Below are positions 19,366 through 39,600 of a stretch of DNA of 64,000 nt, one piece after another (the stretch's first letter is position 1; each line of letters starts with the position of its first letter). The notes below the pieces were generated by a model, which had not been told where the DNA came from, did no database searches, and saw only the letters and a list, made by a program, of their open reading frames with translations. Origin of the DNA: Clostridiales bacterium GWF2_38_85 (GTDB lineage: Bacteria > Bacillota > Clostridia > Oscillospirales > CAG-382); NCBI GenBank assembly GCA_001797275.1, contig MGOY01000018.1:1-64000 (forward strand). The letters run 5' to 3'. The translations under genes were made by a program, and so were the position numbers.

Positions 19366-19447
19366 AATCCAACTTTGTTGAATTTGTACTATTCAATATT
19401 CATTTTCAATATTCATTGTTCATTGATTTGCATATAATAACATATAT

Positions 19448-19523
<76 letters not shown>

Positions 19524-19789: not shown

Positions 19790-19959
19790 TGCCTGAGCTT
19801 TCTATATAGTGTCATCTAAGTGCAAGCAGTACAAAAAAGCCTGATTTTATGCGGTTTCTATGAAAAGCATGTTTCAGGCAGTGATAAGTAGTTTCATCTA
19901 AGTTCATCCCCGTTGTGGGCAAATTGTGGGCAACTATTTTAGCCCTAAAAATTGAATAC

Positions 19960-20000
19960 GCTGTTATAGCTCAGTCGGCAGAGCACTTCCTTGGTAAGGA
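19960..20000 (+). pseudogene. tRNA-Thr 5'-half fragment 2 (att-like remnant)
   Basis: gctgttatagctcagtcggcagagcacttccttggtaagga, then divergence. Confidence 0.8.
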
Positions 20001-20123
20001 TGTTTGAGCAATGCCGACTGGTGCTAACCAGTAGCAAGGAATCCAAAAAAGCCTGATTTTAAGCGGGTTTCAAGACTTCACCGTTTCAGGCGAGTTCAAC
20101 GAGTTTCATCTCGTTTTGTCCCC

Positions 20124-20147
20124 GTGGGGGTCAAAATGGGGGTCAAA
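20124..20147. repeat. 24-bp inverted repeat, left copy
   Basis: GTGGGGGTCAAAATGGGGGTCAAA; exact reverse complement at 20360-20383. Confidence 0.9.
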
Positions 20148-20183
20148 ATTTTGACAAATTTTTGACCTAAAAACGCCGAATAT

Positions 20184-20259
20184 GCTGTTATAGCTCAGGT
20201 GGCAGAGCACTTCCTTGGTAAGGAAGAGGTCACCAGTTCGAATCTGGTTAACAGCTCCA
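20184..20259 (+). tRNA. tRNA-Thr (GGT), apparent integration site
   Basis: GCTGTTATAGCTCAGGTGGCAGAGCACTTCCTTGGTAAGGAAGAGGTCACCAGTTCGAATCTGGTTAACAGCTCCA. Confidence 0.95.
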
Positions 20260-21557: not shown

Positions 21558-22403
21558 ATGGAGGAAGACAATTGCCGTGTTTTCGCTTGCGTAAACCAAA
21601 AGGGCGGCGTTGGCAAGTCAGTCACTTCAACCAATTTGGGCATTGGACTGGCGCGGCACGGCAAGAAAGTTCTTGTCGTGGACTTGGATAGTCAGGCAAG
21701 CCAAACCGTCAGCTTGGGCTGGACACAACCGGATGAGTTGCCTGTTACCATTGCCACACAACTTGGCAAAGTAGTAGAAAACAAACCTATTGACCCGCAG
21801 GATGGAATCCTGCACCACGCCGAAGGCGTTGACCTCATGCCGTCGAGCATTGAATTGTCGGGACTTGAAATGCGAATGGTGAATGCCATGTCGCGAGAAT
21901 TTGCCCTGCGAACTTACCTGTCGGAAATCAAGCCAAACTACGATGTGGTGGTCTTAGACTGCCCACCCACGCTTGGTATGATGACCATCAACGCATTAGC
22001 CGCAGCCGACCGCGTGATTGTTCCAGTTCAGCCAGAGTATCTGTCGGTTATCGGCATGACACAGCTTTTTGACTCCGTGGCGTTGGTGAAAAAGCAGATT
22101 AACCCCACCTTAAAGGTTGATGGTGTTCTGATAACGCTCGCCAATATGCGGACAAATCTGGCAAAAAACACGCTGGAAATTCTCCATCAGGCGTACGGAG
22201 GGAGTGTTCGCATTTTTCCGCACCCCATTCCCTACTCAACAAAGATCAAGGAAGCGAGTGCGTCTGGCAAGAGCATTTTCGCCTACGATCCCAAAGGTTC
22301 GGCGGCGTATGCTTATGAGCAGCTTGTAAAGGAGGTGGAACGCGATGGCAGACAAATCGGGGCAGATGTTCGAACTTCCAAAAAAGTCGAGCTTAGTCGC
22401 TGA
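21558..22403 (+). CDS. parA: ParA-family ATPase
   Basis: NQKGGVGKSVTSTNLGIGLARHGKKVLVVDLDSQ; DCPPTLGMMTINAL. Confidence 0.93.
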   Translation: MEEDNCRVFACVNQKGGVGKSVTSTNLGIGLARHGKKVLVVDLDSQASQTVSLGWTQPDELPVTIATQLGKVVENKPIDPQDGILHHAEGVDLMPSSIELSGLEMRMVNAMSREFALRTYLSEIKPNYDVVVLDCPPTLGMMTINALAAADRVIVPVQPEYLSVIGMTQLFDSVALVKKQINPTLKVDGVLITLANMRTNLAKNTLEILHQAYGGSVRIFPHPIPYSTKIKEASASGKSIFAYDPKGSAAYAYEQLVKEVERDGRQIGADVRTSKKVELSR

Positions 22404-23322
22404 CCTGTTTACCACACAGGAACAGCGCGACAATGACAAGAGGGAAAAAGTCATTGACATTCCGCTTTCAGATATTGACGATTTTCCTGACCACCCCTTT
22501 CAAGTGCGAAATGATGCAGCAATGCAGAGTATGGTGGAAAGCGTGAAAGCGGCTGGAATCCAAACCCCAGCGATTGTCAGACAAAAGGAAGATGGACGTT
22601 ACGAGCTTATCAGCGGACATCGCCGAAAAATGGCGGCAATGCTGGCGGGGCTTGAAATAATGCCTGTGATTGCGCGTGATTTGAGCCGCGATGAAGCCAT
22701 TATCGCCATGTGCGACGCTAATTTGCAGAGGGAGTTTATTCTTCCAAGTGAAAAGGCTCAGTCATACAAAATGCGGCTTGAAGCTATGAATCGTCAAGCG
22801 GGCAGACCACGACTGGATAATCTGACACCAGTGGTGTCAGATTATAAGGAATCTCGAACAAACGAGAAACTTGGTGAGATTATAGGCGAAAGTCGAGAAC
22901 AAATCCGCCGATATATCCGCTTGACCGAGCTAATCCCCGGCATTTTGGAGATGGTGGATAACGCAGTAATCGACGACAAAGCCAAACAGCAAATGGCGTT
23001 TCGCCCCGCTGTGGAATTATCCTATCTCTCAAAAGAACAACAGAATGAATTGTTGCTCACAATGGAAAGCGAGGACAGAACACCGTCACTCTCACAGGCG
23101 TTGGAGATGAAACAACTCAGCGCGGAGGGAAAGCTGGATATTGACGCGATTTTCACTCTCTTGCGGCAAGATAAGCCAAATCAGATTGAACAACTCAAAT
23201 TTTCGCGTGAGCGAATCAGCAAATACTTCCCCGCAAACACGCCCACACAGAAAATCGAGGACACTATCATCAAAGCGTTGGAGCTATGGCGAAAGCGAGA
23301 ACAGAGTCGCGATGCGCGGTAG
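22345..23322 (+). CDS. parB: ParB/RepB/Spo0J-family partition protein
   Basis: DIPLSDIDDFPDHPFQV...VRQKEDGRYELISGHRRKMAAMLAG. Confidence 0.93.
   Translation: MADKSGQMFELPKKSSLVADLFTTQEQRDNDKREKVIDIPLSDIDDFPDHPFQVRNDAAMQSMVESVKAAGIQTPAIVRQKEDGRYELISGHRRKMAAMLAGLEIMPVIARDLSRDEAIIAMCDANLQREFILPSEKAQSYKMRLEAMNRQAGRPRLDNLTPVVSDYKESRTNEKLGEIIGESREQIRRYIRLTELIPGILEMVDNAVIDDKAKQQMAFRPAVELSYLSKEQQNELLLTMESEDRTPSLSQALEMKQLSAEGKLDIDAIFTLLRQDKPNQIEQLKFSRERISKYFPANTPTQKIEDTIIKALELWRKREQSRDAR
22817..22845. repeat. 29-bp perfect palindrome within parB
   Basis: ATAATCTGACACCA-G-TGGTGTCAGATTAT. Confidence 0.9.
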
Positions 23323-23535: not shown

Positions 23536-23754
23536 ATGAAATCATTTATCAACAAAATCAAAATGGCAGCTGTATGCGCCAAAGTCGCACTCTCAAACAA
23601 AAAGGCAGAAGGCTATGTCGATTCGGGCGTTAAAATCCTTATCGCAGTCGTTCTTGGTGCTCTGCTTCTCGGCGGTCTTTACGCACTGTTCGGCGACACT
23701 ATCTTGCCTACTTTGACAACAAAGATTCAAGATATGTTCAATTTCGCAGGCTAA
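23536..23754 (+). CDS. Flp/Tad-type small pilin-like protein 1
   Basis: SNKKAEGYVDSGVKILIAVVLGALLLGGLYALFGDTILPTLTTKIQDMFNFAG; short basic leader then a single hydrophobic helix. Confidence 0.75.
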   Translation: MKSFINKIKMAAVCAKVALSNKKAEGYVDSGVKILIAVVLGALLLGGLYALFGDTILPTLTTKIQDMFNFAG

Positions 23755-23800
23755 GAATTTTAACCAATTCAAAACAAAAATTATGAAAGAGGTATCAACT

Positions 23801-24019
23801 ATGAAAAAATTTATCAACAAACTCAAAGCAACGGCGGTTTGCGCTAAGCAAGCACTCTCAAACAAAAAGGCTGAAGGCTATGTCGATTCAGGCGTTAAAA
23901 TCCTGATCGCGGTCGTACTCGGTGCTTTACTACTCGGCGGACTATATGCATTGTTCGGCGACACTATCTTGCCAACTTTGACAACAAAGATTCAAGATAT
24001 GTTCAATTTCGCAGGCTAA
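23801..24019 (+). CDS. Flp/Tad-type small pilin-like protein 2
   Basis: Near-identical paralogue, start at MKKFINKL. Confidence 0.75.
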   Translation: MKKFINKLKATAVCAKQALSNKKAEGYVDSGVKILIAVVLGALLLGGLYALFGDTILPTLTTKIQDMFNFAG

Positions 24020-24065
24020 TAATTTCAAGCAACTCAAAACAAAAATTATGAAAGAGGTATCAACT

Positions 24066-24284
24066 ATGAAATCATTTATCAACAAAATCAAAATGGCGGC
24101 TGTATGCGCCAAAGTCGCTCTATCCAACAAAAAAGCAGAGGGCTATGTCGATTCAGGCGTTAAAATCCTTATCGCCGTTGTACTCGGTGCGCTTCTTCTT
24201 GGCGGTCTTTATGTATTGTTCGGCGACACTATCTTGCCAACACTGACAACCAAAATCGAAGGTCTATTCAACTACGCAGGTTAA
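24066..24284 (+). CDS. Flp/Tad-type small pilin-like protein 3
   Basis: Near-identical paralogue with divergent C-terminus KIEGLFNYAG. Confidence 0.75.
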   Translation: MKSFINKIKMAAVCAKVALSNKKAEGYVDSGVKILIAVVLGALLLGGLYVLFGDTILPTLTTKIEGLFNYAG

Positions 24285-24336
24285 AATATCGGGACAGCGG
24301 AGTGGTTCTTAAAGTCCCACTCCGCATATCCCTATT

Positions 24337-25005
24337 ATGGAAGGACAAATGGCTATGAATTTCTTTTTAAAACCAATTGGTGTTCTGCCAATGCCAATGC
24401 CTATGATGCCAATCAATTTATCACCTAAAATGCTTCTACTCTTCGGTTGTATGCTATTTGGACTTCTCTTAGGATTCATATACAACCGACACGATAAAAA
24501 CAAAGAATGGCAGACAACAGATACATTAAACCTAATTATCCCAACACTCGCATCTGGAGCGTTATTTCTTATGTTTGGCATTTCAATGATAAGTCTAAAA
24601 GGACTGATTTTCTTATTCTTGTTGCTGATTGCATCAAACAGCGATTTCAAAAATCGTGAAGTCACAGATTGGATACCAATTGCGATTGCAATTACTGCAC
24701 TGATTGGAACAAGGCTTGCAGATATTCCATTTATGCTGATTGCTATGCTTATTATTGGACTACCGCAGTTATTAATAGCTATGTTGAAACCCGGCGGTTA
24801 CGGTGGAGCAGATATTAAACTAATGGCAGCTTGCTCGTTCTTACTTGGAATTGAGGGCGGATTCATTGCAATTATTTTAGGACTATCAGTAGGATTGATT
24901 GCGACAGTAATCAAAAGAAAACTAAAACACGAAAACTTAAAAGAGAAATTCCCTGTGGTGCCGTGCTTGGCACTCGGTAGCTTTCTCGCATTTTTAATAA
25001 TATAG
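24337..25005 (+). CDS. A24-type prepilin peptidase (TadV/CpaA-like)
   Basis: SNSDFKNREVTDWIP and GGYGGADIKLMAACSFLLG aspartate motifs in a multi-TM protein. Confidence 0.8.
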   Translation: MEGQMAMNFFLKPIGVLPMPMPMMPINLSPKMLLLFGCMLFGLLLGFIYNRHDKNKEWQTTDTLNLIIPTLASGALFLMFGISMISLKGLIFLFLLLIASNSDFKNREVTDWIPIAIAITALIGTRLADIPFMLIAMLIIGLPQLLIAMLKPGGYGGADIKLMAACSFLLGIEGGFIAIILGLSVGLIATVIKRKLKHENLKEKFPVVPCLALGSFLAFLII

Positions 25006-25018
25006 GAGGAAAATTCTA

Positions 25019-25729
25019 ATGAAAAACAGAACAATAATCGGTATCTTTTGCATATTCCTTGCGGTGGCAGTAATGTTTGGTATTTCGCCAATCGTCAACC
25101 GTATGGCGGCAGGCAAAACCACAGTTTATCAGGTGAGCAAAATGGTCGAGCAAGGTAAAATGATTGCCAAAGAGGATGTCACTAAAGTCGAAATCGGAAG
25201 TTCAGGAGTTAAAACAGGTTATATCAAAGATGAAAGTCAACTGGTCGGCAAATATGCTAAGAGCGATATTTACCCAAACATCAATATCTATCCCGAAATG
25301 ATTTCTGACAAAGCGGATTCTGCTGAGGATGTATTCAGAACGCTTGATGGTAAGAAACTTGCCATAAGTGTGACCATTCCGTCTTTTGCCACAGGACTTT
25401 CAGGTAAACTTCAAAACGGTGATATTGTAAGTGTTATCGTAACAAATGGGGCTCAAAGCTCAATCCCTGCACAACTCACCTATGTGAAAATTATTACAAC
25501 GACCACAAAAAAAGGTGCGGACAACGGTAATGTTCCAGAAAATAAAGATGGAACAACCGACTTGCCTTCAACTGCTACTTTGCTTGTAAACCCAGAGCAA
25601 GCAGTCTTACTCGCAAGCTATGAGCAAAACAACAAACTTCATCTTGCACTTGTGTATAGAGGAACACCAGAACAGGCAGATAAATATGTAGCAGAGCAAC
25701 AAAAGGTTCTCGAAAGCGGGGCGAAATAA
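25019..25729 (+). CDS. CpaB/RcpC-like SAF-domain pilus assembly protein
   Basis: TM then SAF-like domain, VYQVSKMVEQGKMIAKEDVTKVEIGSSGVKTGYI. Confidence 0.75.
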   Translation: MKNRTIIGIFCIFLAVAVMFGISPIVNRMAAGKTTVYQVSKMVEQGKMIAKEDVTKVEIGSSGVKTGYIKDESQLVGKYAKSDIYPNINIYPEMISDKADSAEDVFRTLDGKKLAISVTIPSFATGLSGKLQNGDIVSVIVTNGAQSSIPAQLTYVKIITTTTKKGADNGNVPENKDGTTDLPSTATLLVNPEQAVLLASYEQNNKLHLALVYRGTPEQADKYVAEQQKVLESGAK

Positions 25730-25730
25730 T

Positions 25731-26465
25731 ATGAGCAAAATAATTGCCGTTTGGGGTTCTCCCAATTCTGGGAAAACAACGCTTTCAGTTAAACTCGCAA
25801 ACTATTTTTACGAAAGACACAGTGCCGTAGTTGCAGTGGTATTTGCGGATATGATTACCCCTTCATTACCCGTTGTTTTCCCCAACAAAAAATCGGACGA
25901 AATGTTTTCCGTTGGAACTCCACTTTCTAAGCCAGAGGTGCTACAAAATGATGTTATGAAAAACATCGTAACCTATAAAGGTAAGAACAATATGGGTTTC
26001 CTCGGTTTTAAAGATGGTGAAAACAGACATTCACATCCTACTTTTGAAGAAAACAAAGTGGATGCACTGCTTGCTATACTGAAAAGCAATGTAGATATTG
26101 TAATAGTGGATTGCAGTAGCGATATTCAAAATACAATTACAGCATCTGCACTTAAAAATGCCGATTCAGTAATCCAAGTGGCTACTCCCGACTTGAAAAG
26201 CGTTAGTTTCTTCTCATCTCAACTTGGTTTATTGAACGACACAATGCTCTTGTCTGATAACCACATTATTTGTCTTAACAAAACCGAAAATTCAACCTAT
26301 GAGCCTATATCTGAAGCAACTTCGTATTTTAAGGAGGTTGCTTTTTCTTTTCCCTATTCTTCGGAGCTTAAAAATCAATATATGAAAGGAACATTAATTG
26401 AAAAGGTTTCTGATAGAAAGGTCAGCTTTTTAGTGAAAGCTCTTGCGGAAAAGGCGGTGAAATAA
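25731..26465 (+). CDS. CpaE/TadZ-like P-loop ATPase
   Basis: IAVWGSPNSGKTTLSVKLANYF; between cpaB and cpaF. Confidence 0.75.
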   Translation: MSKIIAVWGSPNSGKTTLSVKLANYFYERHSAVVAVVFADMITPSLPVVFPNKKSDEMFSVGTPLSKPEVLQNDVMKNIVTYKGKNNMGFLGFKDGENRHSHPTFEENKVDALLAILKSNVDIVIVDCSSDIQNTITASALKNADSVIQVATPDLKSVSFFSSQLGLLNDTMLLSDNHIICLNKTENSTYEPISEATSYFKEVAFSFPYSSELKNQYMKGTLIEKVSDRKVSFLVKALAEKAVK

Positions 26466-27766
26466 TGGCTAACATTGAATTTTGGACACTGCTGAGCTTA
26501 ACGCAAGAATATATTTCAGAACGATATTCATCTGTTTTAATCGACAAGGAAAAACTCATTCAGTTAAAAGCGTATATTGAAAAATATCTGATTGACACAA
26601 AGTATGCGGTTGATGGTCATTCAACAGAGTCACTTATTGATGCTCTTTATTCTGAAATGGCGGAGTATTCGATTATCACAAAGTATCTTGGTTCTGGCGA
26701 CCTTGAGGAGATTAATGTAAATGCTTGGAACGATGTTGCCTTAACGCACCGTGATGGCACGATTACAAAACTAAGAGAACACTTCCATTCACCTGAACAC
26801 GCAGTAGATATTGTTAAGCGACTACTTCACCATAGCGGTATGATTATCGACAATGCCACACCAATGGCACAGGGGCATTTGCCGAACAACACTCGTATCA
26901 CTGTTCTAAAAGAACCGATTGTTGATGATGATGTCGGCGTTGCCTGTTCAATCCGTTTGCTACACCCAAATAAGGTTACTCGCAAAAAACTTCTTGAGAG
27001 TGAATTTGCAACTGAAGAAATGATTTCTTTTCTTGAGATGTGTATGCGATATGGTGTATCTGTGGTTGTTGCAGGAGCTACTTCAAGTGGTAAAACAACT
27101 CTTCTTAACGCACTTCTTCAAAGTATCCCTGACACTAAGCGTATGTTCTCCATCGAAAGCGGTTCTCGTGAATTATCACTTGTTCGTAAGGACGGAAAAC
27201 ACATTAAAAACAATGTTGTGCACACATTATCCCGTCCGAGTGATAATCCCAACTATGATATTTCACAAGAAGATTTAGTAGTTGCTTCCTTGCGTTTTAA
27301 CCCTGATATTGTAGTTGTCGGCGAAATGCGTGACACCGAAGCTTATTCGGCTGTCGAGGCTTCACTCACGGGGCATACAGTTGTATCAACTGTTCACTCA
27401 GGTGCAGGAGATGCAGCTCATTTGCGTATTGCACTGCTATGTCAAAAGCGTTTCCCAATCGACTTTAATACTTCTCTTGTTCAAGCAGGTCAAGCGTTTC
27501 CTCTGGTTGTGTATGCTCATAAACTCGAAAACAATTCCCGAAAGATTATGGACATTTCAGAGTGCATAATTCTTCCAACTGGCGAACGCAAGTACAATGC
27601 TCTTTATCGTTTCAATATTACGAAGAACACTATTGAAAACTATGAAACGGTTGTTGACGGTTTCTTTGATAAACCTAACTTGATGTCAGACAGTCTAAAG
27701 CATAAGTTAATGCAATTTGGTGTTCCACAAAGTGAACTTCAATACTTTTTTAAGGAGGGTGCATAA
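26465..27766 (+). CDS. CpaF/TadA-type secretion ATPase
   Basis: VVVAGATSSGKTTLLNALLQSIP (Walker A), IVVVGEMRDTEAYSAVEASLTGHTVVSTVHS. Confidence 0.93.
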   Translation: MANIEFWTLLSLTQEYISERYSSVLIDKEKLIQLKAYIEKYLIDTKYAVDGHSTESLIDALYSEMAEYSIITKYLGSGDLEEINVNAWNDVALTHRDGTITKLREHFHSPEHAVDIVKRLLHHSGMIIDNATPMAQGHLPNNTRITVLKEPIVDDDVGVACSIRLLHPNKVTRKKLLESEFATEEMISFLEMCMRYGVSVVVAGATSSGKTTLLNALLQSIPDTKRMFSIESGSRELSLVRKDGKHIKNNVVHTLSRPSDNPNYDISQEDLVVASLRFNPDIVVVGEMRDTEAYSAVEASLTGHTVVSTVHSGAGDAAHLRIALLCQKRFPIDFNTSLVQAGQAFPLVVYAHKLENNSRKIMDISECIILPTGERKYNALYRFNITKNTIENYETVVDGFFDKPNLMSDSLKHKLMQFGVPQSELQYFFKEGA

Positions 27767-28692
27767 TGATTTTAGTCCCACTTTTATCTTCAATATTACT
27801 GATTGTCGCAGTAGTTTTGCTTCTCGGTCTTACGCCAGAACGAATTACAAACGACATTATGAAAGTAATTTCTCCAAAGCAAAGCCTTAGACATCGAGTT
27901 AAAATAGCTCAAGGCAAAAAGAAAAGCCGTAAAATAGCAGAACTACTCAATCATATCAATGAAGCTATGATTGCAACTGGCAAAGGTACGCAGTTCGCAA
28001 TGATTTGTAGTGCTTCGCTGGCACTTATGATTTGTGGCGGTGTATTTGCGATAATGATTAACAATGTTTTTCTTCTTCCAATTCTTGCAATCGCTTTCGC
28101 TATTCTTCCCTTTGTATACGCTAAAACCACTATAAGTTATTACGATAAACACATCGAGGAAGAAATTGAAGTTACACTATCCTTGATAACCACAGCGTAT
28201 TGCAGGAGCAACGATATTGTGTTGGCGGTTAGAGAAAATATCCATAATATACGACTGCCAGTAAATATCATTTTCAAATCGTTTTTAGGCGAAACAACAG
28301 CAATCAGCTCTAATATCAAAAATTCACTTCACAAGCTAAAAGGAAAGGTTAACAACGATATTTTCGGCGAATGGGTCGATACTCTTATCGCCTGTCAGGA
28401 CGACAGAAAGTTAAATGATACACTACAACCTGTTGTAACGAAGCTATCTGATGTACGCATCGTCAATAACGAACTAAAGACAATGCTTGGTGAAACAAAG
28501 AAAGAATACTACATGATGGTGGCTATGGTCGTAGGCAATATCCCTCTTCTGTATATGCTTAATAAATCGTGGTATGCAGCTCTAATGTTTAGCATTCCGG
28601 GCAAAATTGCCCTTGCAGTTTGCGGTATGGTGATACTTGTTACTGCTTTACTAATGATGAAATATACAAAACCAATTGAGTATAGGAGGTAG
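27766..28692 (+). CDS. TadB-like pilus platform protein
   Basis: Multi-TM protein between CpaF and the second platform gene. Confidence 0.7.
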   Translation: MILVPLLSSILLIVAVVLLLGLTPERITNDIMKVISPKQSLRHRVKIAQGKKKSRKIAELLNHINEAMIATGKGTQFAMICSASLALMICGGVFAIMINNVFLLPILAIAFAILPFVYAKTTISYYDKHIEEEIEVTLSLITTAYCRSNDIVLAVRENIHNIRLPVNIIFKSFLGETTAISSNIKNSLHKLKGKVNNDIFGEWVDTLIACQDDRKLNDTLQPVVTKLSDVRIVNNELKTMLGETKKEYYMMVAMVVGNIPLLYMLNKSWYAALMFSIPGKIALAVCGMVILVTALLMMKYTKPIEYRR

Positions 28693-29566
28693 TGAAATGA
28701 TGCAAATAATCATCGGTATTCTAATCGGCATCGGTTTGTTTTTTATAGCTGCTGACCTATTCCGAATACCATATATCAAAACCAGTAAAGCCTTTCAAAA
28801 TCTATCAAAAAGGCAGAACAAAAAGACATCTGTCATCGAACTTTGGTTGCAAGGCTTTGCGAATTTCTTGTCTCGGTATCTCAAACTAAATGAATACAAG
28901 CGAATGCAGCTTGTATCCGACCTGCAAACAGCAGGAATGGATATTTCACCAGAGCTTCATATTGCAAATGCAGTTACAAAGGCAGGAATATGGGGATTGC
29001 TCGCTATCCCTGTCTTTTTTGTTTTCCCACTCATCTCACCAGTTGTAATTGCATTGTCATTCGCAATGTATTTCAAGGAGTCCAAAGGTATTCAAAGCCG
29101 CATTAGGAAACGTCGTGAAGCCATTGAATATGAACTACCTCGCTTCGTTTTCTTTATTGAGAAAACACTTCTCCACAGTCGTGATGTGCTTACTATCCTC
29201 GATAATTATCGTGAAAATGCTGGCAAAATCTTTAAATACGAGCTGAATATCACGGTAGCAGATATGCGGTCTGGAAATCATGTGGAAGCATTACAACGAC
29301 TTGATAATAGAGTTGGCTCAACAATGTTATCCGATGTGGTCAGAGGTCTATCTTCAGTAGAGCATGGTGACGAAACAACAGTATATTGGCAATCACTTTC
29401 GCTCAAGTTTGCAGATATTCAAAGGCAAATGCTCAAACAACAGGCGTTGAAAGTTCCGAGTAAGGTTAAAAGATTGTCAATGGCACTTTTATTCTGCTTT
29501 ATGCTTGTGTATATCGTTGTAATGGTTACGGAAATTATGTCTTCGATGGGGGCGTTATTCGGATGA
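28676..29566 (+). CDS. TadC-like pilus platform protein
   Basis: Type II secretion F-like, RKRREAIEYELPRFVFFIEKTLLHSRDVLTILDNYRENAG. Confidence 0.75.
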   Translation: MSIGGSEMMQIIIGILIGIGLFFIAADLFRIPYIKTSKAFQNLSKRQNKKTSVIELWLQGFANFLSRYLKLNEYKRMQLVSDLQTAGMDISPELHIANAVTKAGIWGLLAIPVFFVFPLISPVVIALSFAMYFKESKGIQSRIRKRREAIEYELPRFVFFIEKTLLHSRDVLTILDNYRENAGKIFKYELNITVADMRSGNHVEALQRLDNRVGSTMLSDVVRGLSSVEHGDETTVYWQSLSLKFADIQRQMLKQQALKVPSKVKRLSMALLFCFMLVYIVVMVTEIMSSMGALFG

Positions 29567-29982
29567 TAAAATTAATTAACACCCTCAAAAACAAACGTGG
29601 CGAAGGCTATGTTGATGTAGTCGTAACCGTACTAATTTTTATGATGCTATTGGTACTTGCACTGAATATGTTTTCGTTTCTTACAGTCAAGCAAGATATG
29701 GACTACTACGCAAAAGAGATGATTTACTGTGCGTCCGCTAATGGTAGAACTGCCTATAAAGTAGACGCTCGCAAGGCGGAACTCACATCTGAAACAGGAC
29801 TTAATCCAACGGTAACTTGGCAAGCCACCTACTTCAACACATCAGACCAGACGGTGCAATATGGTGATACCATCACAGTAACACTGACTTACAACACCTA
29901 TTTTAAGGGGTTTGGTGTATTCAGAATACCAATTACTTTGACGGCTAAATACAGTGGACTATCAATGAAGTATTTTAAGTGA
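29563..29982 (+). CDS. TadE/DUF4320-like pseudopilin
   Basis: KNKRGEGYVDVVVTVLIFMMLLVLALNMFSF prepilin-like N-terminus. Confidence 0.7.
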   Translation: MIKLINTLKNKRGEGYVDVVVTVLIFMMLLVLALNMFSFLTVKQDMDYYAKEMIYCASANGRTAYKVDARKAELTSETGLNPTVTWQATYFNTSDQTVQYGDTITVTLTYNTYFKGFGVFRIPITLTAKYSGLSMKYFK

Positions 29983-29992
29983 GGAGATTTGT

Positions 29993-30442
29993 ATGAACTA
30001 TGTTAAAACCTGTGTATATATCCTCATAACAGTTATGGTGTTATCACTCGTGCTAACCTACGCAAGCATTATGAGCGTTATACAAACTTCAAGAAGTAAC
30101 ACAGAAAGAGTTCTACAAAGCTATGTTACTGAAAACTCAACCTATATTTACAACTCAATAATAAACGGAAACGATGCGACACCTTCGTTAAATCAGGACT
30201 TCTTTTCTACTCGTTATCTCACAGATGGCACATTGGACTATGACGGAGCCTACCTGTATAATAGAGATAACAAAGGCGGATACGTTTATCGTCTGACTAT
30301 GCCAATCACAACTTTTACGGTCTCAGGCACATTAAATCTAACCTGTTCGTATACTTTGAAAATTCCAATAGATTTCGCAGGAAAGATGGTAACGGAACTG
30401 AGCATACCAATCAAGGTAAAAACAAGTTACAATCTAAAATAA
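29993..30442 (+). CDS. Tad-locus membrane-anchored hypothetical protein
   Basis: Single N-terminal TM, TadE/F-like position. Confidence 0.55.
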   Translation: MNYVKTCVYILITVMVLSLVLTYASIMSVIQTSRSNTERVLQSYVTENSTYIYNSIINGNDATPSLNQDFFSTRYLTDGTLDYDGAYLYNRDNKGGYVYRLTMPITTFTVSGTLNLTCSYTLKIPIDFAGKMVTELSIPIKVKTSYNLK

Positions 30443-30460
30443 CAAATGAAAGGATTTTAT

Positions 30461-31117
30461 TATATGAAAAAGAAAACAATTATTATCTCGGCATCAACAC
30501 TTGTCCTTGTCGCAGTCATTTTGACCTCTCTTATGTTAAGACATCCTCAAATTGAACCGCCACAGCAAGAAACATCATCTACTATTGAAACATCGAGTGT
30601 TTCACCAGTAGTTCCAGAGGTGACAAGCAGTACAACTTCAACTCCAACTCCGTCCCAAACAGATAATCCAAGTTTAAATGTTGATGTCAAAGCGGGGGTT
30701 ACTGATTCGCCATCAAACGGTGAAAACGGCGGAAACAAAGCAACCGCCAGCGTGGATCAGAAACCAAAACCAACAACAAGTAGTAATGGTGGCGGAATTA
30801 ATATTGGCGGTGAAGCACCAGCAACCGATAATAGTGAAACAAATGCTTTTATTGCCAGTCTTGAAGCTCAAGGATGCCCATACTGTGGCAAACACGATTG
30901 CGTAAGTTTTTATACAAAAGATGAGTGGAATAATCCTTGCTACAACCCTAAAAAATGCCCACAATATGACAAGCACGAAGATCCACTTTACTATTGCCAA
31001 GATTGCGGGAAACCTATCGGGGATGGTACAAACGGAACTTGTTCTCCAAAAATCAGTGGTAGTGATTGTGGTTGCACCGATTTGGATTGTGACCACTATT
31101 GTAGAAATATCGGATAA
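30461..31117 (+). CDS. Membrane-anchored Ser/Thr/Pro-rich protein with cysteine-rich C-terminus
   Basis: N-terminal TM, STP linker, CPYCGKHDC...CYNPKKC...CQDCGKP...CSPK...CGCTDLDCDHYC. Confidence 0.7.
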   Translation, partial: YMKKKTIIISASTLVLVAVILTSLMLRHPQIEPPQQETSSTIETSSVSPVVPEVTSSTTSTPTPSQTDNPSLNVDVKAGVTDSPSNGENGGNKATASVDQKPKPTTSSNGGGINIGGEAPATDNSETNAFIASLEAQGCPYCGKHDCVSFYTKDEWNNPCYNPKKCPQYDKHEDPLYYCQDCGKPIGDGTNGTCSPKISGSDCGCTDLDCDHYCRNIG

Positions 31118-31137
31118 TCAAATAGTAAAACAGCATT

Positions 31138-31172
31138 TAAGGACTTGATTGTAAAAGATCAAGTCTTTTTTT
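31138..31172 (+). terminator. Hairpin terminator
   Basis: AAGGACTTGATTGTAAAAGATCAAGTCTTTTTTT. Confidence 0.8.
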
Positions 31173-31233
31173 ATTCAAAGTAGGTTGTGCCAACATTTTA
31201 GGCGCAACCACTTAATTTTTAAGGAGGTTCATC

Positions 31234-34200
31234 ATGAAGATACGATTAAAATTCTTTACAGCTTTATTGCTTATATTTGCAATATTAGCAGGTAGTTCAC
31301 TCAATGCTTTCGCACTAACATGGGACGGAAGTTCATCGGGTGGTACTGGTGGTGGTAGTTCTGCCGGACCAAACGGTTATGCTATTCGTACCACAGGCGA
31401 TAATTGCTTAGGTTATCGATTTTCAGTAGTAGATAAAAACGGAAATAACAAAGTTTCAAAGGTAATTGATGTTTTCCGAAACACTTCGTATGGCAATATG
31501 GAGTACAGCGGAGCGTATAAATTCACAGTCAAATATAACAAAAAGCAAATTATAAACAATCAAAACAGTGGCTTTAGCACAAGCAAAAACACAACAAACT
31601 GCTACAAAGAAGCAAATATGGGCTTTCAAACTTCTCTACCAACTCCTGACCAAATGGGAACTTGGCAAGATGTTACTACAAACCTAAACGCAGTGCTTTC
31701 AAACCTTGGGGTAGGAAGTATCAATAATCTCGTTAATGGCGACAAGGTTATCGTAGAGCCGTTGTTTGATGTGCGTCTCGAAAGCGTTTATCACTCAGTT
31801 ACAGTTTCAGAGCTTGCGATATACGGTAAATATATACTTGGCGCAAGCAGTAATGGTGGTTCAAGTAGCACCAGTGCTTCATGGGGCTTTATAAGCTCTT
31901 ATACCAACAAAATCTATCCAAATGCTCTTTATACAACTAATGGGCAAGGGCTTTGGACAGCAGCGAGTGCACTTTCGAGCAGAGCAACATTTAATACTAT
32001 TATCAATAATGGATATGGTGTGGGTATAGCTTACACGGAAAATAGACCCGACCTCGGAAATATCAAAGTGAATTATTCAAATCCGGGCGGTAGTGGTTCG
32101 GCAAGTTTCAGTGCCGCAGGTAAGACATTTACGATTGCATCAGGTAGTAGCTACACGATAACTGGTGTAAATGTAGGTAGTTACACCGTTACCGAAACAG
32201 CTCCAGCATCAGGGTATATTTGTAATGGCTCGACTACGCAAACGGCAACTGTTACCGTTAATGCTACGGCGACTGTAACTTTTAGCGATAAAGTTCCTGT
32301 TGGTAGCATAGTTGTAAAATATTCAAACCCCGGCGGAAGTGGTTCAGCAAGTTTCAGTGCCGCAGGTAAAACATTCTCGATAGCTTCGGGTGGCAGTTAT
32401 ACCATAAGCAATGTGGCGGCAGGAAGTTATACTGTAACGGAAACCAGTCCAGCTTCGGGATATGTTTGCAATGGTTCTACTACGCAGACAGCAACCGTTA
32501 CAAACGGTGGCACTGCAACCGTTACTTTCAGTGATAAGGTTCCAGTAGGCAGCATACTTGTGAAATACTCAAATCCGAGTGGTAGTGGTTCGGCAACTTT
32601 TAGTGCCGCAGGTAAAACTTTTACCATTGCTTCGGGTGGCAGCTACACCATAAGTAATGTGGCGGTAGGTAGTTATACAGTAACGGAAACAAGCCCCGCA
32701 TCGGGTTATGTTTGCAATGGTTCTACCACTCAGACTGCAACAGTCACAAATGGTGGTACAGCAACCGTTACTTTCAGCGACAGATTACCAGTAGGAAATA
32801 TAATCGTTAAATATTCAAATCCAAGTGGAAGTGGCTCAGCAAGTTTTAGTGCCGCAGGTAAGACATTCTCAATAACTTCGGGAGGCAGTTATACCATAAG
32901 CAATGTAACCGCAGGCAGTTATACAGTAACCGAAACAAGTCCCGCATCAGGTTATGTATGCAATGGCTCTACTACACAAACCGCAACTGTTACGGATGGA
33001 AATACCACTACAATAACCTTTAGTGACAGATTATCCGTAGGTGGAATAAAGGTAAACTACTCAAATCCAAGTGGAAGTGGCTCCGCAAGTTTTAGTGCCG
33101 CAGGTAAGACATTTTCAATAGTTTCGGGTGGCAGCTATACAATAAGCAATTTAGCGGCAGGAAGTTACACCGTAACCGAAACCAGTCCAGCATCAGGACT
33201 TATATGTAATGGTTCTACCACGCAAACAGCTGTAGTCACTGTTGGAAATACCACTACTATAACTTTCAGCGACAGATTATCAGTAGGAAATATCAAAGTT
33301 GTTTACTCCAATCCGAGTGGAAGTGGCTCTGCAAGTTTTAGTGCCGCAGGGGTAACTTTTTCGATTACTTCTGGCGGAAGTTATACCGTTAGCAATGTAA
33401 CCGCAGGCACTTATACCGCAATTGAAACAAGTCCAGCATCGGGTTATGTCTGTAATGGTTCTAATATGCAAACAGCTGTCGTTACGGATGGAAACACTAC
33501 AACAATAACCTTCAGCGATAGATTGCCAGTAGGTAGTATAAAAGTTAATTATTCAAACACAGGCGGTAGTGGTTCTGCAAGTTTTAGTGCCGCAGGTAAG
33601 ACATTTTCGATTACTTCTGGAGGTAGTTATACCGTTAGCAATGTAACCGCAGGCACTTATACAGTAACAGAAACCAGTCCTGCATCGGGTTATATCTGCA
33701 ATGGTTCTACTATGCAAACGGCTGTCGTTACAGACGGTAATACAACAACAATAACCTTTAGCGATAGGTTGCCAGTAGGAAATATCAAAGTTAATTACTC
33801 TAATCCGAGTGGCAGTGGTTCTGCAAGTTTTAGTGCCGCAGGTAAAACATTTTCGATTAGTTCTGGCGGTAGTTATACTGTTAGCAATGTAACGGCAGGA
33901 AGTTATACAGTAACGGAAACAAGCCCAGCATCGGGATTTGTTTGCAATGGTTCTACCACGCAGACCGCAATAGTTACGGATGGAAACACTACAACAATAA
34001 CTTTTAGCGATAAAGCTTCAGTTGGCGATTTGCAAATTTGCTACACGAACTGGAACAACACAGGCACAGGCACATTTAATGTTACTGGTCCGAGTGGATT
34101 TAACAGAACGATTAATGTAACAGCAAATGTTGACTATATCTTTAGCAATGTAACCGCAGGAAGTTATACCGTTACTCAAACCGTTGCACCAACAGGCTGT

Positions 34201-35232
34201 AAGATTTACTCGCCGTCTGTCCCTACAACAGTTACAAACGGTTATGTAACCACAGTAAGCATATACAATCCAGAAAATATTACCTTGTCAGTCACCCCTA
34301 TTACACCAAATGCAAACTACACTTCGGGGACTACCGTTATATCCTCATTTTATATTAACAATCTAAGTCAATCGAATATCATTCCAACAGACAATGTAAA
34401 TGTTAGCTTTAAGTATTACTATGCAGGTAGTTGGACAACGCTCTCCAGTCAAAATAGTGTTGTAATTCCTGCAAGTGGTAACAACCTCGTTTGGGTTAAA
34501 TGGCAAGTGCCAACCGTTTCATCTTCTGCATCAATCACTGTGCAGGCTACTGTTGATGGTAGCAGTATAGGAGCAGGAAGTAGTTCTGGTTCGATTAATA
34601 CTACGGTTGGACCTCTATTAACTTCAATTACACCAGATACTCATTACGAAAAATCAGCACCGTCAGGATTTTATGTTCCTGCACCACCTTCAAATTCACA
34701 GGCTAATAACGCAAGTTGGAGTGTGTGGAGCTATTCGGGTGGAACTTTCAGCAAACAGACTTTTGGAATAACTTTGGATCAATGTACAGTGGCTCTCGCA
34801 CCAGATAGCAATTCACCGTCTGCAAAGTTTGCAAATGGATATTGGACGATGAAATCTGGATATGGTGTTTCAACTCTCTTAACTACGCTTTTGAAGTCTT
34901 TAAGTGGAACTACTATGCCGTCAACAACAGCTTATACAAACGCACAGACAGCTAATCTATTTGTACCTGAGTATCAATATTCAAGTGCTTTTAGGTCTTA
35001 TTGTTCTTTAGAAAACGCTGGCACAAACAGGTTCCAACTACCAACAAACCCACAGGCAACTAACAATGGGCGACTTCATTTTACCCCTGTGTATTTCCCC
35101 AACGGAAACTATATAGCACAAGGTAAAGCAAGCGATTGTTGGACACCCGCAGGTATGTTGACTTCTTCCAACAACTCAAATGCAATTAAGATTGATGGCA
35201 CGATTTACGATGATTGGGCTATCGGCAGATAA
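31234..35232 (+). CDS. Large secreted repeat protein (putative adhesin), SpaA/prealbumin-like repeats
   Basis: Signal peptide MKIRLKFFTALLLIFAILAGSSLNAFA; repeats G.IKVNYSNPSGSGSASFSAAGKTFSI.SGGSYT.SNVTAGSYTVTETSPASGYVCNGSTTQTA.VT. Confidence 0.85.
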   Translation: MKIRLKFFTALLLIFAILAGSSLNAFALTWDGSSSGGTGGGSSAGPNGYAIRTTGDNCLGYRFSVVDKNGNNKVSKVIDVFRNTSYGNMEYSGAYKFTVKYNKKQIINNQNSGFSTSKNTTNCYKEANMGFQTSLPTPDQMGTWQDVTTNLNAVLSNLGVGSINNLVNGDKVIVEPLFDVRLESVYHSVTVSELAIYGKYILGASSNGGSSSTSASWGFISSYTNKIYPNALYTTNGQGLWTAASALSSRATFNTIINNGYGVGIAYTENRPDLGNIKVNYSNPGGSGSASFSAAGKTFTIASGSSYTITGVNVGSYTVTETAPASGYICNGSTTQTATVTVNATATVTFSDKVPVGSIVVKYSNPGGSGSASFSAAGKTFSIASGGSYTISNVAAGSYTVTETSPASGYVCNGSTTQTATVTNGGTATVTFSDKVPVGSILVKYSNPSGSGSATFSAAGKTFTIASGGSYTISNVAVGSYTVTETSPASGYVCNGSTTQTATVTNGGTATVTFSDRLPVGNIIVKYSNPSGSGSASFSAAGKTFSITSGGSYTISNVTAGSYTVTETSPASGYVCNGSTTQTATVTDGNTTTITFSDRLSVGGIKVNYSNPSGSGSASFSAAGKTFSIVSGGSYTISNLAAGSYTVTETSPASGLICNGSTTQTAVVTVGNTTTITFSDRLSVGNIKVVYSNPSGSGSASFSAAGVTFSITSGGSYTVSNVTAGTYTAIETSPASGYVCNGSNMQTAVVTDGNTTTITFSDRLPVGSIKVNYSNTGGSGSASFSAAGKTFSITSGGSYTVSNVTAGTYTVTETSPASGYICNGSTMQTAVVTDGNTTTITFSDRLPVGNIKVNYSNPSGSGSASFSAAGKTFSISSGGSYTVSNVTAGSYTVTETSPASGFVCNGSTTQTAIVTDGNTTTITFSDKASVGDLQICYTNWNNTGTGTFNVTGPSGFNRTINVTANVDYIFSNVTAGSYTVTQTVAPTGCKIYSPSVPTTVTNGYVTTVSIYNPENITLSVTPITPNANYTSGTTVISSFYINNLSQSNIIPTDNVNVSFKYYYAGSWTTLSSQNSVVIPASGNNLVWVKWQVPTVSSSASITVQATVDGSSIGAGSSSGSINTTVGPLLTSITPDTHYEKSAPSGFYVPAPPSNSQANNASWSVWSYSGGTFSKQTFGITLDQCTVALAPDSNSPSAKFANGYWTMKSGYGVSTLLTTLLKSLSGTTMPSTTAYTNAQTANLFVPEYQYSSAFRSYCSLENAGTNRFQLPTNPQATNNGRLHFTPVYFPNGNYIAQGKASDCWTPAGMLTSSNNSNAIKIDGTIYDDWAIGR
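32056..34023 (+). repeat. Eight tandem 246-bp (82-aa) repeats
   Basis: Unit starts read at 32056, 32302, 32548 ... and the divergent ninth at 34024; 8 x 246 = 1968 bp exactly. Confidence 0.9.
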
Positions 35233-35363
35233 TGACTATATTTATCTGTGTTGTTTGTTTTGCATTGGGCGTACTATTCGGCGTGAGCTGGATGTGCGCC
35301 CTTTCCCTTGCAAAACAGGCTGACAATGAACTGGAAGAAAAGGAGAAGAACGATGGAAATTAA
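35232..35363 (+). CDS. Small single-TM protein (43 aa)
   Basis: TAATG overlap with the upstream gene; MTIFICVVCFALGVLFGVSWMCALSLAKQADNELEEKEKNDGN. Confidence 0.5.
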   Translation: MTIFICVVCFALGVLFGVSWMCALSLAKQADNELEEKEKNDGN

Positions 35364-35445
35364 AACAATTATAGCCATCGTATTGGTGGCATTCATCATC
35401 GGTGCGTTCGTTTGGTTGCAGGTTCGCAAGAAGAACAAGAAATAA
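35353..35445 (+). CDS. Very small single-TM protein (30 aa)
   Basis: MEIKTIIAIVLVAFIIGAFVWLQVRKKNKK, overlapping the previous ORF. Confidence 0.45.
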   Translation: MEIKTIIAIVLVAFIIGAFVWLQVRKKNKK

Positions 35446-35523
35446 CCACGAGTGCTGGGGCGGCTATCTATATAGAAAGTCGCCTCTTTAACATATCAGA
35501 AATAATTGAAAGGGGCTTTTGCC

Positions 35524-35793
35524 ATGAACAAATACACAAAATTTCGGCTTGTCGGAGAATTAGAAACCACCATCTCCGCAAAACTACTTTACCTTGTCCT
35601 ACTGGACGTGATTGACGAGGAAAATAAGATTGTGATTCCACAAAAAAGAATCAGTACAGCTTTGGGTATCAGTAAAAATACCGTTAGCCGCAATCTCCGC
35701 AGACTCGGCAATCGTGGGTATATCGACGTGATTCCGCAGTTTAACGAATACGGCGGTCAGATGCCAAACAAGTATATCGTCAGGGAGGGTTAA
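35524..35793 (+). CDS. Winged-HTH DNA-binding protein
   Basis: IVIPQKRISTALGISKNTVSRNLRRLGNRGYIDVIP. Confidence 0.75.
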   Translation: MNKYTKFRLVGELETTISAKLLYLVLLDVIDEENKIVIPQKRISTALGISKNTVSRNLRRLGNRGYIDVIPQFNEYGGQMPNKYIVREG

Positions 35794-35797
35794 GAAA

Positions 35798-36649
35798 ATG
35801 GATGAAAACAAAGAAAAACGGATGATAAGCAATACCGACTATGAAGTAAAGCAGTCGTTTCGCATCGGTGGGAAAGAGATTTTGCTTGCCGAGGACCCGA
35901 ACGCCAACGAAAACCTTTTTTATATGGTTTGCCAATACACCGAAAATGGCATCATCGGGGAGTATTCGCAAGCTATCGTCAGCGAAGATTATTTGGAAGT
36001 TCTGCTTGAGTTCACCAAGCTCATTGAAAAAGAAGCGACGGCGATTCAAGAGGAACGCGACGCAATTGGTCAATCCACAGACCTGTTTTCTGCCGCACAA
36101 TGCGAGCCAAATGATTATACACAGAGCATTGAGGGCAAGGTGATTGCAATTAAATCCGAGGTATTCTCCCCAGAATATCGTCGCGGCAACTATCAGCTTG
36201 TGCTTGCCATTAGCGGTAATGGTGCAATGGCGAATCCGCGAGGTAACGCTGTGTTTTGCCAACATTTGAATAGCGGTAAACACACACGCTTTGAAAGATA
36301 TGAGGTGTTAGGGGTTGTACGCACCGAAGCAATGCCCGATTGGGCGAAAGTGAGTCTTGTGCAGTTGCAAGGCAAAAGGGATAAACCAACCGAACAAAAA
36401 GAATACGCTGGTAACTACGAAATAATTGAGCGTATTGAGGTTGGGCAAAAGGTTTACGGTTTAGGTTTCCGCGAGGGTGCGGTTCAACCATACGGCACTT
36501 GGCAGGGATGGAAAAATAGCAATCGCGGGTTTGATGCGGGTCATTATTTCAGCGACGTTGAAACCGCAAAGGCGGACCTCCATGACCGTGCCGCTAAGGA
36601 GCAAGAACGTATTGACCGACCTAAACGACGCGAGGAAGGAGCGCGATAG
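35798..36649 (+). CDS. Conserved ICE hypothetical protein
   Basis: Intact ORF in operon. Confidence 0.55.
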   Translation: MDENKEKRMISNTDYEVKQSFRIGGKEILLAEDPNANENLFYMVCQYTENGIIGEYSQAIVSEDYLEVLLEFTKLIEKEATAIQEERDAIGQSTDLFSAAQCEPNDYTQSIEGKVIAIKSEVFSPEYRRGNYQLVLAISGNGAMANPRGNAVFCQHLNSGKHTRFERYEVLGVVRTEAMPDWAKVSLVQLQGKRDKPTEQKEYAGNYEIIERIEVGQKVYGLGFREGAVQPYGTWQGWKNSNRGFDAGHYFSDVETAKADLHDRAAKEQERIDRPKRREEGAR

Positions 36650-36651
36650 AT

Positions 36652-39600
36652 ATGGCTACGAAATTACAGCTTGTCACGGCGATGTACGACCACAAGCTGA
36701 ACGAACTGACCTCAAACATCAGTGAGTGGCAGCAATTTTTACACTCGGCGAGTCGCAACTATAAGCTGTCGTTTGAAGAACAAGTGCTTGTTCACACGCA
36801 GCGACCTGATGCTACAGCAGTATTGGAGCTTGAAAAGTGGAACGATTCATTTGGGCGTTGGATCAACAAAGGTGCAATTGGTATTGCAGTGGTTGATCGC
36901 GCTTTCATCGGCAAGCGTCGTTTGAAATATTATTTTGATATTTCAGACACCCACGACAGCCGCCGTTCCCGCCCTGTTCCCATTTGGGAGATGAAGCCCG
37001 AATATGAAGCGGAAGTAATCGAAACGCTGGAAGCCACCTTTGGCGAGCTTGAAGAAAAACAAACGCTGGCAAATGCTATCCTTTCGGCAGTTGAAAACGC
37101 CGTCACCGATAACCTGACCGATTATCTTTCCGACCTGATGGATTGCCGTGAAGGTAGCTTCCTTGAAGAATTAGATGAACTCAATATTGAGGTGCTCTAT
37201 TCCAACGCACTCAAAGCCAGTGTTGCTTGGATGCTGTTATCCCGTTGCGGCATTGAACCGACCGCGTTCTTTGAGGCAGAGGATTTTCAAGGAATCCACA
37301 ATTTCAATACACCTGATACCGCTACCCTACTGGGGACTGCGACTTCTGCAATCTCCGAAACGGGTTTGCGTGAGATTTCGTCTACTCTCTTTAATGTCCA
37401 AAAAGCCGAACGAACAGCAGAAGTTTCAGCGAGAACGACCTTGATTGAACCTGCTCAAACTGCGGAACATGATTTATCTGTGGATACTATCGGTCGTACC
37501 TTTGCAGACGAACGCGAAAAAAGCGATAATATAACCATATCAAATTCAGAGAGGAGTATTGACAATGACACAGACACAACCCCTGACCTACACCGAGGTG
37601 AACGGGTATCTGATACCAGACCTGACACTACCGGAGGAACCCGAAGTCGAGCTTGGCAGATACGCATTGATGCGCCGCCATTACCTGATGGAGCATCGCA
37701 AGGGACTATTCAGCCGATTACTGATGAATGGTGGACTGAACCCGCACCTATTGGAAATCGAGCAAACAGCGATGACGCGGCTGGAACAGCAATCAACTCA
37801 GATGGCGAAAGCGGAGGGCGTGACAGAACAGTTGAAAGCACACGACCCGATGGCATGGATTCAACGGATAACGAATATTCGCAACCGAGTGGAGGAAACG
37901 ATACTCAGCGACCTGATTTACAGTTAAATTATTTTCCATCGTCCACAGAACAAATTAACAAGATTGAAGAAGCGGAAGGTACGGCGCAAAAGCCAACACC
38001 TTCCGCTTTTTCTATGCCCATTCCCATCGAAGCACTTGATGAGGAACTGACTCGTCACGGAGGAGCATTAAGTGCAAAGCTCCGCATTTATCACCATTTT
38101 GAGCAACTTGGCACAGAGGATGAACACATTCGATTTCTCAAAAAAGAGTTTGGTCAAGGTGGTCATTCACCCCTTGACGACGGCGGTTACTGGATTGACA
38201 CCAGCGATAAAGGTATGACTTTCGTAAAGGGTGATTTGAAATACACCCTGCCGTGGAGCAAGGTGTCAAAGCGAATTGGTGAGCTTATCGCCGCTAACCG
38301 CTTTTTATCCACACAGGACAAAGATGTTTTCTATCCGCAGTATCTTGAATATTTGGAGAATCGGGAAATTCTGCGGCAGAAGAACGCAGTATTGGATGCA
38401 GCTGCTGCTTTACCACCCTCGGAAAAGCGCGACACACTCATTCCACGGCTTGTTGACTTCCTAAATGGATTAAACGAACACGAACGCTATCTCAATAAAA
38501 AGCTGAGGTTGAACGGGCTTGAAGAAATTACTGACACAGCAAGTGCGGCACAGATTGAAGCCATTTTAGCGAGTCCACAGCAAGCACAAAAGCTGATGAA
38601 AGCGATGAAGCAAATAGGAGGTGCGGCTTCTGGCGCATTCGAGCGTAATCATGGTTATCGTTTCCATGAAGAGCTTGTAGAACTTTTCCCACGTCGTCCT
38701 GTCTATCACTTGGGTGATACAGCACATATCGGCTCTCACGAGTACGAAGTGCTGGCGTTCGATGATACCACAGTAAAGTTGTATGATTCTGAATTTCCTC
38801 TAATGCAAAAGGAAATGTCACGTGAGGAGTTTGACCGAAAGGTCGCCGAGAATCCTACTAATGAACATCTGATGGAATTGACGGCGGCACCCGATGTTGC
38901 CGAAAAACCGCAAGATGTAGAACTGGAAAGTGAATTAGATACAGAGGATTCAGACGAGCTTTATATCCCGCAAATTGGCGACCGTTACGAGATTCAGGGA
39001 CGGAAGTTCGTTGTAGATTCTGTCAGCGAAGAATGGAACAATGTCAGTTTACAGGATGTAACATTTCAGCAAAGCGTTGGTTTCCCTATATTCAGGCGCG
39101 AATCGCTTGATTTTATCAGGCTATATACGCCTGTTGCGGAGCCAACGGCAGAACCCAATGTGCAAGTGGTCAGCCGTGAGGTTATTCCCGGTTCACTTTT
39201 CGATGTTGAACTGGTTAAAGAGCATTACCCACAAGATGAAGCACTTGAACCCACAGAAAAAACAATCACTCCTGCGTGGGCGCAAAAGAAAAAGCCCGCC
39301 CGCAGCAACTACTTTGACGCATTCCCAAATGTTTCAATGTCGGACCGCCACAACTTCAAAATTACTGACGATAACCTCGGCACAGGTGGTGCAAAGGCGA
39401 AATTCCGTGCCAATATGGACGCTATCAACCTCTTACATGATTTGGAGTTTGACGGTAAACTGGCAACACCTGAACAGCAGGATATTCTTTCCCGCTATGT
39501 GGGTTGGGGCAGCCTTGCGGACGCTTTCAAGGAAAACAACCCCGGATGGGAAAACGAGTTTATAGAACTTTATACCGCTCTTTCTCCCGAAGAATACGAA

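Follow-up and report, generated by a model that had tools for sequence, protein, structure and literature searches.

Gene content of the pilus module

We analysed a stretch of 64,000 nucleotides from Clostridiales bacterium GWF2_38_85 (hereafter the window), which forms the first 64 kb of the 133-kb contig C18 (MGOY01000018.1) and in which an integrative and conjugative element (ICE) carries a set of genes for a Tad-type pilus. The pilus genes occupy positions 23536-31117 and, together with the gene of a large secreted protein ending at 35232, form a near-contiguous module entirely on the + strand. Three DUF6133 pilins, an A24 prepilin peptidase, CpaB, CpaE, CpaF, TadB, TadC and two minor pilins are encoded there.

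The DUF6133 major pilin is present in three copies. The first (23536-23754) matches PF19629 (E = 1.2e-31) and its leader ends in K-K-A-E-G/YVDSGVKILIAV, the slash marking here and below the end of the leader; the second (23783-24019) and third (24048-24284) were assigned by sequence. The mature part (52 aa) is identical in copies 1 and 2, and copy 3 is identical to both at 47 of these 52 positions. DUF6133 is small and pilin-like, yet it carries the motif EG/YVD where Flp-type major pilins have G/xxxxEY. A DUF4320 protein (29563-29982; PF14208, 5.7e-32), with the leader end G-E-G/YVD, is a TadE-like minor pilin; its alignment with canonical TadE is weak (15-18% probability), and its leader motif is shared with the other pilins of the module. 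The second minor pilin (29993-30442) stands in the TadF position and has lost the leader motif in the window copy, while most relatives have kept it. All three pilin families share the leader end [AG]EG/Y[VI], the strict pattern being found in about half of the open frames searched, a lower bound because raw open reading frame (ORF) sets contain spurious or mis-started frames.

The assembly machinery begins with a TadV-like A24 prepilin peptidase (24337-25005; PF01478, E = 4.3e-11), in which the GGAD motif is kept. The CpaB/RcpC-like protein (25019-25729) matches PF16976 (4e-13) and, by hhalign, canonical CpaB (97.4%), and scores slightly below the cut-off of the equivalog model TIGR03177 (8e-19; 67.9 bits against 71). 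It is followed by a CpaE/TadZ-like P-loop ATPase (25731-26465; hhalign 95.1% against canonical CpaE) with a loop of the form GSPxSGKT, not of the KGGxGKT type. The CpaF/TadA-type motor ATPase (26465-27766) was recognised by PF00437 (1.5e-29), by the TadA-family model TIGR03819 (2e-32) and by its position in the tree, and has the Walker A motif GATSSGKTT. Two platform proteins, TadB-like (27766-28692; hhalign 97.7% and 96.9% against canonical TadB) and TadC-like (28676-29566; 95.9% against the canonical TadC alignment), complete the machine. Taken singly, the CpaE-, TadB- and TadC-like proteins of the window gave no convincing Pfam match, and T2SSF was not reached by the platform proteins; these three were called by comparing their profiles with those of the canonical Tad proteins encoded in this genome and in its relatives. 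No secretin RcpA was found among the window genes between 20300 and 63400; a secretin is not required in monoderms (PMC6668835). All frames of the module are open and the catalytic motifs are retained. The ratio of nonsynonymous to synonymous substitution (dN/dS) between relatives is low, at 0.02-0.09 for cpaF and 0.03-0.19 for cpaB, and these genes are therefore maintained.

Downstream of the pilins lies a membrane-anchored protein with a conserved Cys-rich C-terminus (30446-31117; 57% identity across the C-terminal 81 aa), which in this class of ICE always directly precedes the large protein. The latter (31234-35232; 1332 aa) has a signal peptide and eight SpaA-type repeats. Its N-terminal domain of about 255 aa is 55-79% conserved across window-type elements, and its C-terminus is a conserved immunoglobulin (Ig)-like region of 310 aa that ends in WTPAGM..YDDW and recurs in 35 aligned proteins as well as in plasmid-borne versions. 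Between these conserved ends the middle is variable, the proteins ranging from 509 to 1537 aa. A sortase-anchoring LPXTG motif is absent from the C-terminus of every one of these proteins listed, that of the window included, and the window protein has no recognisable thioester feature. The structural model of the C-terminal region is confident (predicted local distance difference test score, pLDDT, 94) and matches only generic Ig/fn3 sandwiches (template modelling scores 0.2-0.3), whereas that of the N-terminal domain (pLDDT 74) gave no fold match. The C-terminal profile and ICE-type TadC were each present in 12 of 149 related genomes; 11 genomes had both, one the profile alone and one TadC alone (Fisher p = 1e-14, a guide value only, as genomes are not independent samples). 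The large protein is a dedicated, fixed partner of the ICE-type Tad module. Inversion of the shufflon kind at its gene was considered and rejected, since only weak, short and imperfect inverted repeats occur at about 30400-36700. To our knowledge, the shufflon is not universal among conjugative type IV pili.

The module among conjugative elements

A preliminary description, made from the letters of the window, had proposed that a Tad/Flp machine, with peptidase, CpaB, CpaE, CpaF, TadB, TadC, pilins and a large protein, lies between the partition and the conjugation genes of a Gram-positive ICE with its own type IV secretion system (T4SS), in a region more AT-rich than the parAB and helicase flanks. 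Each of these components was found in our searches with Pfam, NCBIfam and hhalign, and the gene map bears out the arrangement. On the same strand, ParA (21558-22403; Pfam AAA_31, 8e-53) and ParB (22345-23322; ParB_N, 2e-15) precede the module, and the conjugation genes follow it: a MobA/VirD2-type relaxase (46824-48266; PF03432, 2e-32), the VirD4 coupling protein (50165-52084; PF02534, 3e-64), a VirB6/T4SS membrane protein (52680-53510; assigned by position and a weak T4SS_pilin match, and conserved in relatives), the VirB3-like PrgI (53528-53866; PF12666, 1e-30), the VirB4 ATPase (53811-56210; P-loop_TraG, 9e-16) and a CHAP-domain cell wall hydrolase (56323-58191; PF05257, 3.5e-14). The 19-bp anticodon-arm core of tRNA-Thr(GGT) occurs at 19769, 19980, 20204 and 97548; the insertion divides the host tRNA-Thr, whose acceptor stems pair across the element (GCTGATG on the left, CATCAGC on the right), which places the size of the ICE at about 77 kb. 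Adjoining the right core copy is a tyrosine-integrase-like ORF (C18:95463-96950), labelled from its own sequence and not from a model match. Integrase, att sites, relaxase, coupling protein and T4SS, the marks of an ICE, are thus all present.

The base composition agrees as well, the GC content being 39.2% in the Tad region against 49.5% in parAB, 47.6% in the helicase gene and 48.0% in the T4SS. This AT-richness is specific to the window element: 10 of 14 related ICEs show a difference of no more than about 2.5 points between their Tad and T4SS regions. AT-richness as a constant mark of the module was therefore rejected.

A CpaF profile gave 358 matches in genome contigs, of which the best 80 were examined, nearly all in metagenome-assembled genomes (MAGs) of Clostridia from gut, rumen and similar habitats. 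Gene order is constant among relatives: parAB or DUF3846/p283 precede the module, and p283 and the helicase often follow it. Where contigs reach far enough to judge linkage (several others end too early), VirD4 lies 25-39 kb from DUF6133, on the same contig and strand, in 17 MAG copies (G151, G153, G154, G156, G157, G163 twice, G165-G171, G175, G176 and G179), in the window and in G129, that is, in 19 integrated elements. In G159, VirB6 and PrgI adjoin the module and the MAG has no VirD4, and in G143 the module is on a contig without a detected T4SS. A plasmid search added three circular plasmids of cultured Clostridia that carry the module with conjugation genes (Terrisporobacter petrolearius pTPHSE1, Clostridioides difficile pCd5_2 and one of Oscillospiraceae MB08-C2-2); there it adjoins conjugation genes of the pLS20_p028/MobP2 or MobP3/TrbL kind.

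Some of the contigs need comment. Three that bear clostridial-type modules (L067, L068 and L096) are labelled Bacteroidales or Alphaproteobacteria, probably through MAG binning errors. On G001:C40, TadC and the large protein are present and a CpaF match is missing; TadC lies there in an implausibly long open frame, which suggests that the sequence is masked and the apparent absence of Tad an artefact. In a second ICE of the sister genome (G001/G163, contig C6, 239.5-242.1 kb), VirD4 is broken by several stops and the Tad module is open.

The conjugation systems linked to the module are of several kinds. Elements of the window type have VirD4 about 60-87% and VirB6 65-91% identical to those of the window, whereas in a second group (G151, G171, G175, G176, G179 and G129) VirD4 is about 25% identical to the window's. 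Counting the plasmids, the module is found with three or more distinct T4SS backbones, and hitch-hiking in a single lineage is therefore hard to invoke.

The ICE-borne module is distinct from the chromosomal Tad locus. Contig C42 of this genome bears a canonical Tad locus (L006), adjoining V-ATPase genes, and the genome also encodes a PilB-type ATPase. Chromosomal Tad/Flp (type IVc) systems such as this one resemble the module in having CpaB, CpaE, CpaF, an A24 peptidase, small pilins and a split TadB/TadC platform. The ICE type differs in its DUF6133 and DUF4320 pilins with EG/YV instead of G/xxxxEY, in the WTPAGM/YDDW protein, in riding on conjugative elements and in a CpaE without the KGGxGKT loop, which reads GSPxSGKT in most members. 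The two CpaF proteins of this genome are 30% identical, and ICE-type and canonical CpaF sequences fall on opposite sides of a branch with 100/100 support in a tree of 62 rows.

Trees of 12 window-type elements gave conflicting positions for one of them, L092, the remaining members agreeing broadly. The T4SS tree joins L092 with the window (100/100), their ParA, VirD4 and VirB6 being 86%, 87% and 91% identical, while the Tad tree pairs L092 with L102 (100/100), and CpaF and CpaB of the window and L092 are just 68% and 49% identical. In approximately unbiased (AU) tests the Tad data rejected the grouping of the window with L092 (p = 2e-4) and the T4SS data that of L092 with L102 (p = 5e-5), values that are somewhat optimistic because the clades were picked after viewing the trees. 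At the DNA level the window and L092 are 75-77% identical outside about 23.3-36.1 kb and share only scattered patches within, and GC falls over the same stretch. The conflicting trees and the drop in identity and GC indicate that the window ICE had its Tad module replaced, and hence that the module has moved independently of the T4SS and as a unit between backbones. Another element, L071, combines a T4SS of the second group with a CpaF nested in the clade of the first (100/95).

Putative role in mating and competing explanations

The protein families suggest how the module would work. The A24 peptidase would trim the prepilins, and CpaF with TadB and TadC would polymerise DUF6133 to form a thin filament that crosses the wall, with DUF4320 and the second minor pilin as a putative tip adapter. 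The large protein would be displayed at or near the filament tip and bind recipient cells; it could be held by its N-terminal domain, the Cys-rich membrane protein or the minor pilins. Retraction by the same CpaF motor would pull donor and recipient together, and the relaxase/VirD4/VirB4 apparatus of the element would pass the DNA, the pilus making or holding the mating pairs. In Caulobacter, CpaF powers both extension and retraction (PMC11300603), and minor pilins of the TadE/F/G kind make up pilus tips, prey bacteria being contacted by Tad pili whose tips are adaptable (PMC12075869).

We propose that this is the locus of a type IVc (Tad/Flp-class) pilus which is the conjugative element's own and probably serves its transfer as an accessory mating-pair pilus, a reading that we hold with moderate confidence. 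The mating role is suggested by the linkage, by the exchange of the module among T4SS types and by the parallels with the plasmids R64/TP114 and the element PAPI-1, and recipient capture by the pilus appears to be a good inference. Gram-negative conjugative elements with type IV pili are already known. That of TP114 is required in broth and gut and not on a solid support (PMC9045228), PAPI-1 is a further precedent (PMC5297154), and the present module is likewise encoded on a transferring element with a T4SS. More cautiously, with our confidence evenly divided, we suggest a dedicated family of monoderm conjugation pili, a swappable Tad-derived mating-pair module with variable tip adhesins that would be common to ICEs and plasmids with unrelated T4SSs.

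Several observations weigh against a pilus for mating. The module is found in 6 of 17 genomes with the same type of T4SS, most lacking it; it is therefore dispensable for transfer as such, and we rejected the idea that Tad is an obligatory part of the window-type T4SS. In G172 a pilus and tip island (L113, 2305-14409) lies between chromosomal genes, in a MAG in which no VirD4 was found; this T4SS-free island is possibly domesticated. L122 is its sister. For the large protein, a tip role is suggested by gene order and variability, and the models of its ends gave a generic Ig-like fold or no match. Finally, the second minor pilin of the window begins at the mature part (MNYVKTCV) without the usual leader, and no in-frame start was found further upstream. 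With regard to the co-occurrence of Tad and T4SS across elements, which the preliminary description had named as a check, the outcome was favourable and the association one-sided: a T4SS accompanies Tad in nearly every case that could be judged, in ICEs as in plasmids and with at least three backbones, while a T4SS does not imply Tad. The finding that would count against the claim, Tad on chromosomes without ICE genes, was made for canonical Tad and for the G172 island. As canonical Tad forms a separate deep clade and G172 is one island within the ICE clade, the claim is qualified and not refuted.

The main competing explanation treats the module as fitness cargo, which mobile elements would carry for its benefit to the host bacterium; the pilus would then help to colonise mucus, fibre or biofilm and have no part in transfer. 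Canonical Tad pili do serve adherence, Tad is among the systems most often transferred and is found on plasmids (PMC6668835), the hosts are gut and rumen Clostridia, and a T4SS-free island exists. The patchy presence in 6 of 17 genomes suits cargo and an accessory mating aid alike and therefore does not decide. We nevertheless consider cargo unlikely and favour mating, because the linkage spans unrelated T4SSs and the clade is restricted to mobile elements, where the module has a fixed place beside backbone or conjugation genes. Besides, canonical Tad was not seen with the dedicated tip protein, the host already owns a Tad locus and a PilB-type ATPase, and other cargo, such as the BREX genes, is not shared in like manner.

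The best NCBIfam matches of CpaF are VirB11 models (1.6e-37) and the ICE has no other VirB11, so that the machine might instead serve assembly or secretion, exporting or retracting surface parts of the T4SS, with CpaF replacing VirB11 and no pilus being made. This is improbable given the module's own pilins, peptidase and two platform proteins, and given that the same T4SS works without the module in most genomes and that the two exchange independently. Still less probable is a module for DNA uptake: Flp-dependent transformation is known in a Gram-positive (PMC4322843), but ComEA/ComEC-type genes are absent from the annotated ICE genes of the window and the linkage is with conjugation genes. 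We give equally little credence to a decayed or non-functional remnant, to which the leaderless minor pilin could point, in view of the open frames, the kept catalytic motifs and the dN/dS of relatives well under 1.

Among known systems, the thin pilus of R64/TP114 (IncI), of the type IVb class, likewise combines a pilus machine with a neighbouring T4SS on one conjugative element. Its large, C-terminally displayed adhesin PilV, proposed to choose recipients, may be likened to the large protein of the window; the R64/TP114 pilus differs in being Gram-negative, of type IVb and not Tad, in having a secretin and in the shufflon, repeats of which kind were not found at the window gene. The PAPI-1 pilus of Pseudomonas aeruginosa is also an ICE-borne type IV filament required for transfer, although Gram-negative, of type IVb and essential under all conditions (PMC12857230). 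On the linear plasmids of Cutibacterium acnes, Tad lies beside putative conjugation genes in a Gram-positive, and the authors left a functional link open (PMC5696575); as described, these plasmids differ in their actinobacterial host, in their TraB/FtsK, VirB4 and TcpC-type genes and in pilins TadE1-4 with G/SSTVET. Large multidomain surface adhesins, such as the pLS20 TIE adhesin and PrgB of pCF10, aid Gram-positive mating, most in liquid (PMC8092201), but these are wall-bound and without a pilus, while no thioester or LPXTG was recognised in the window protein. In Myxococcus xanthus the Kil pilus, also of the Tad type, carries variable tip complexes that act on neighbouring bacteria (PMC12075869); it serves predation, is chromosomal and is Gram-negative.

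In the literature that we searched, which included few subscription papers, no description was found of the clostridial DUF6133/tip system or of Tad with ICEs in Firmicutes, and searches for DUF6133 and DUF4320 likewise gave none; the present analysis assigns likely roles to both. If such a dedicated family of conjugation pili exists, conjugation in Gram-positives could no longer be seen as running without pili, and recipient choice would be a modular, exchangeable trait. A module that makes mating pairs would offer a concrete, deletable handle on gene movement and recipient range among Gram-positive gut bacteria, and DUF6133 together with the WTPAGM/YDDW tip gives a sequence signature for locating such elements.

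Other features of the element and the window

Between the module and the conjugation genes, the + strand also encodes a small winged-helix protein, a possible regulator (35506-35793; HTH_36, 2e-7), and a SNF2-type helicase/methylase-like backbone protein of 2498 aa (36652-44148). At the left end of the ICE, the tRNA-Thr(GGT) gene (20184-20259, + strand) contains the att core AGAGCACTTCCTTGGTAAG at 20204-20222. Three copies of this core lie within 450 bp (19754-20222), together with 5' tRNA fragments, and give the impression of small remnant elements or of scars from earlier integrations.

Beyond the conjugation genes lies a defence island (58602-63397 in the window and C18:63412-76506), with the BREX (bacteriophage exclusion) genes BrxA, BrxB, BrxC, PglX, PglZ and BrxL. 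A ThsB/TIR-like ORF sits between PglX and PglZ, and matches to LmuA and LmuB (Lamassu) come after the BREX genes.

Immediately upstream of the ICE, a tRNA array contains a duplicated Gly-Asp-Phe set (18279-19523), and the chromosomal part of the window has on its - strand a T-box leader and a lysine riboswitch (10958-11184, 13168-13337).

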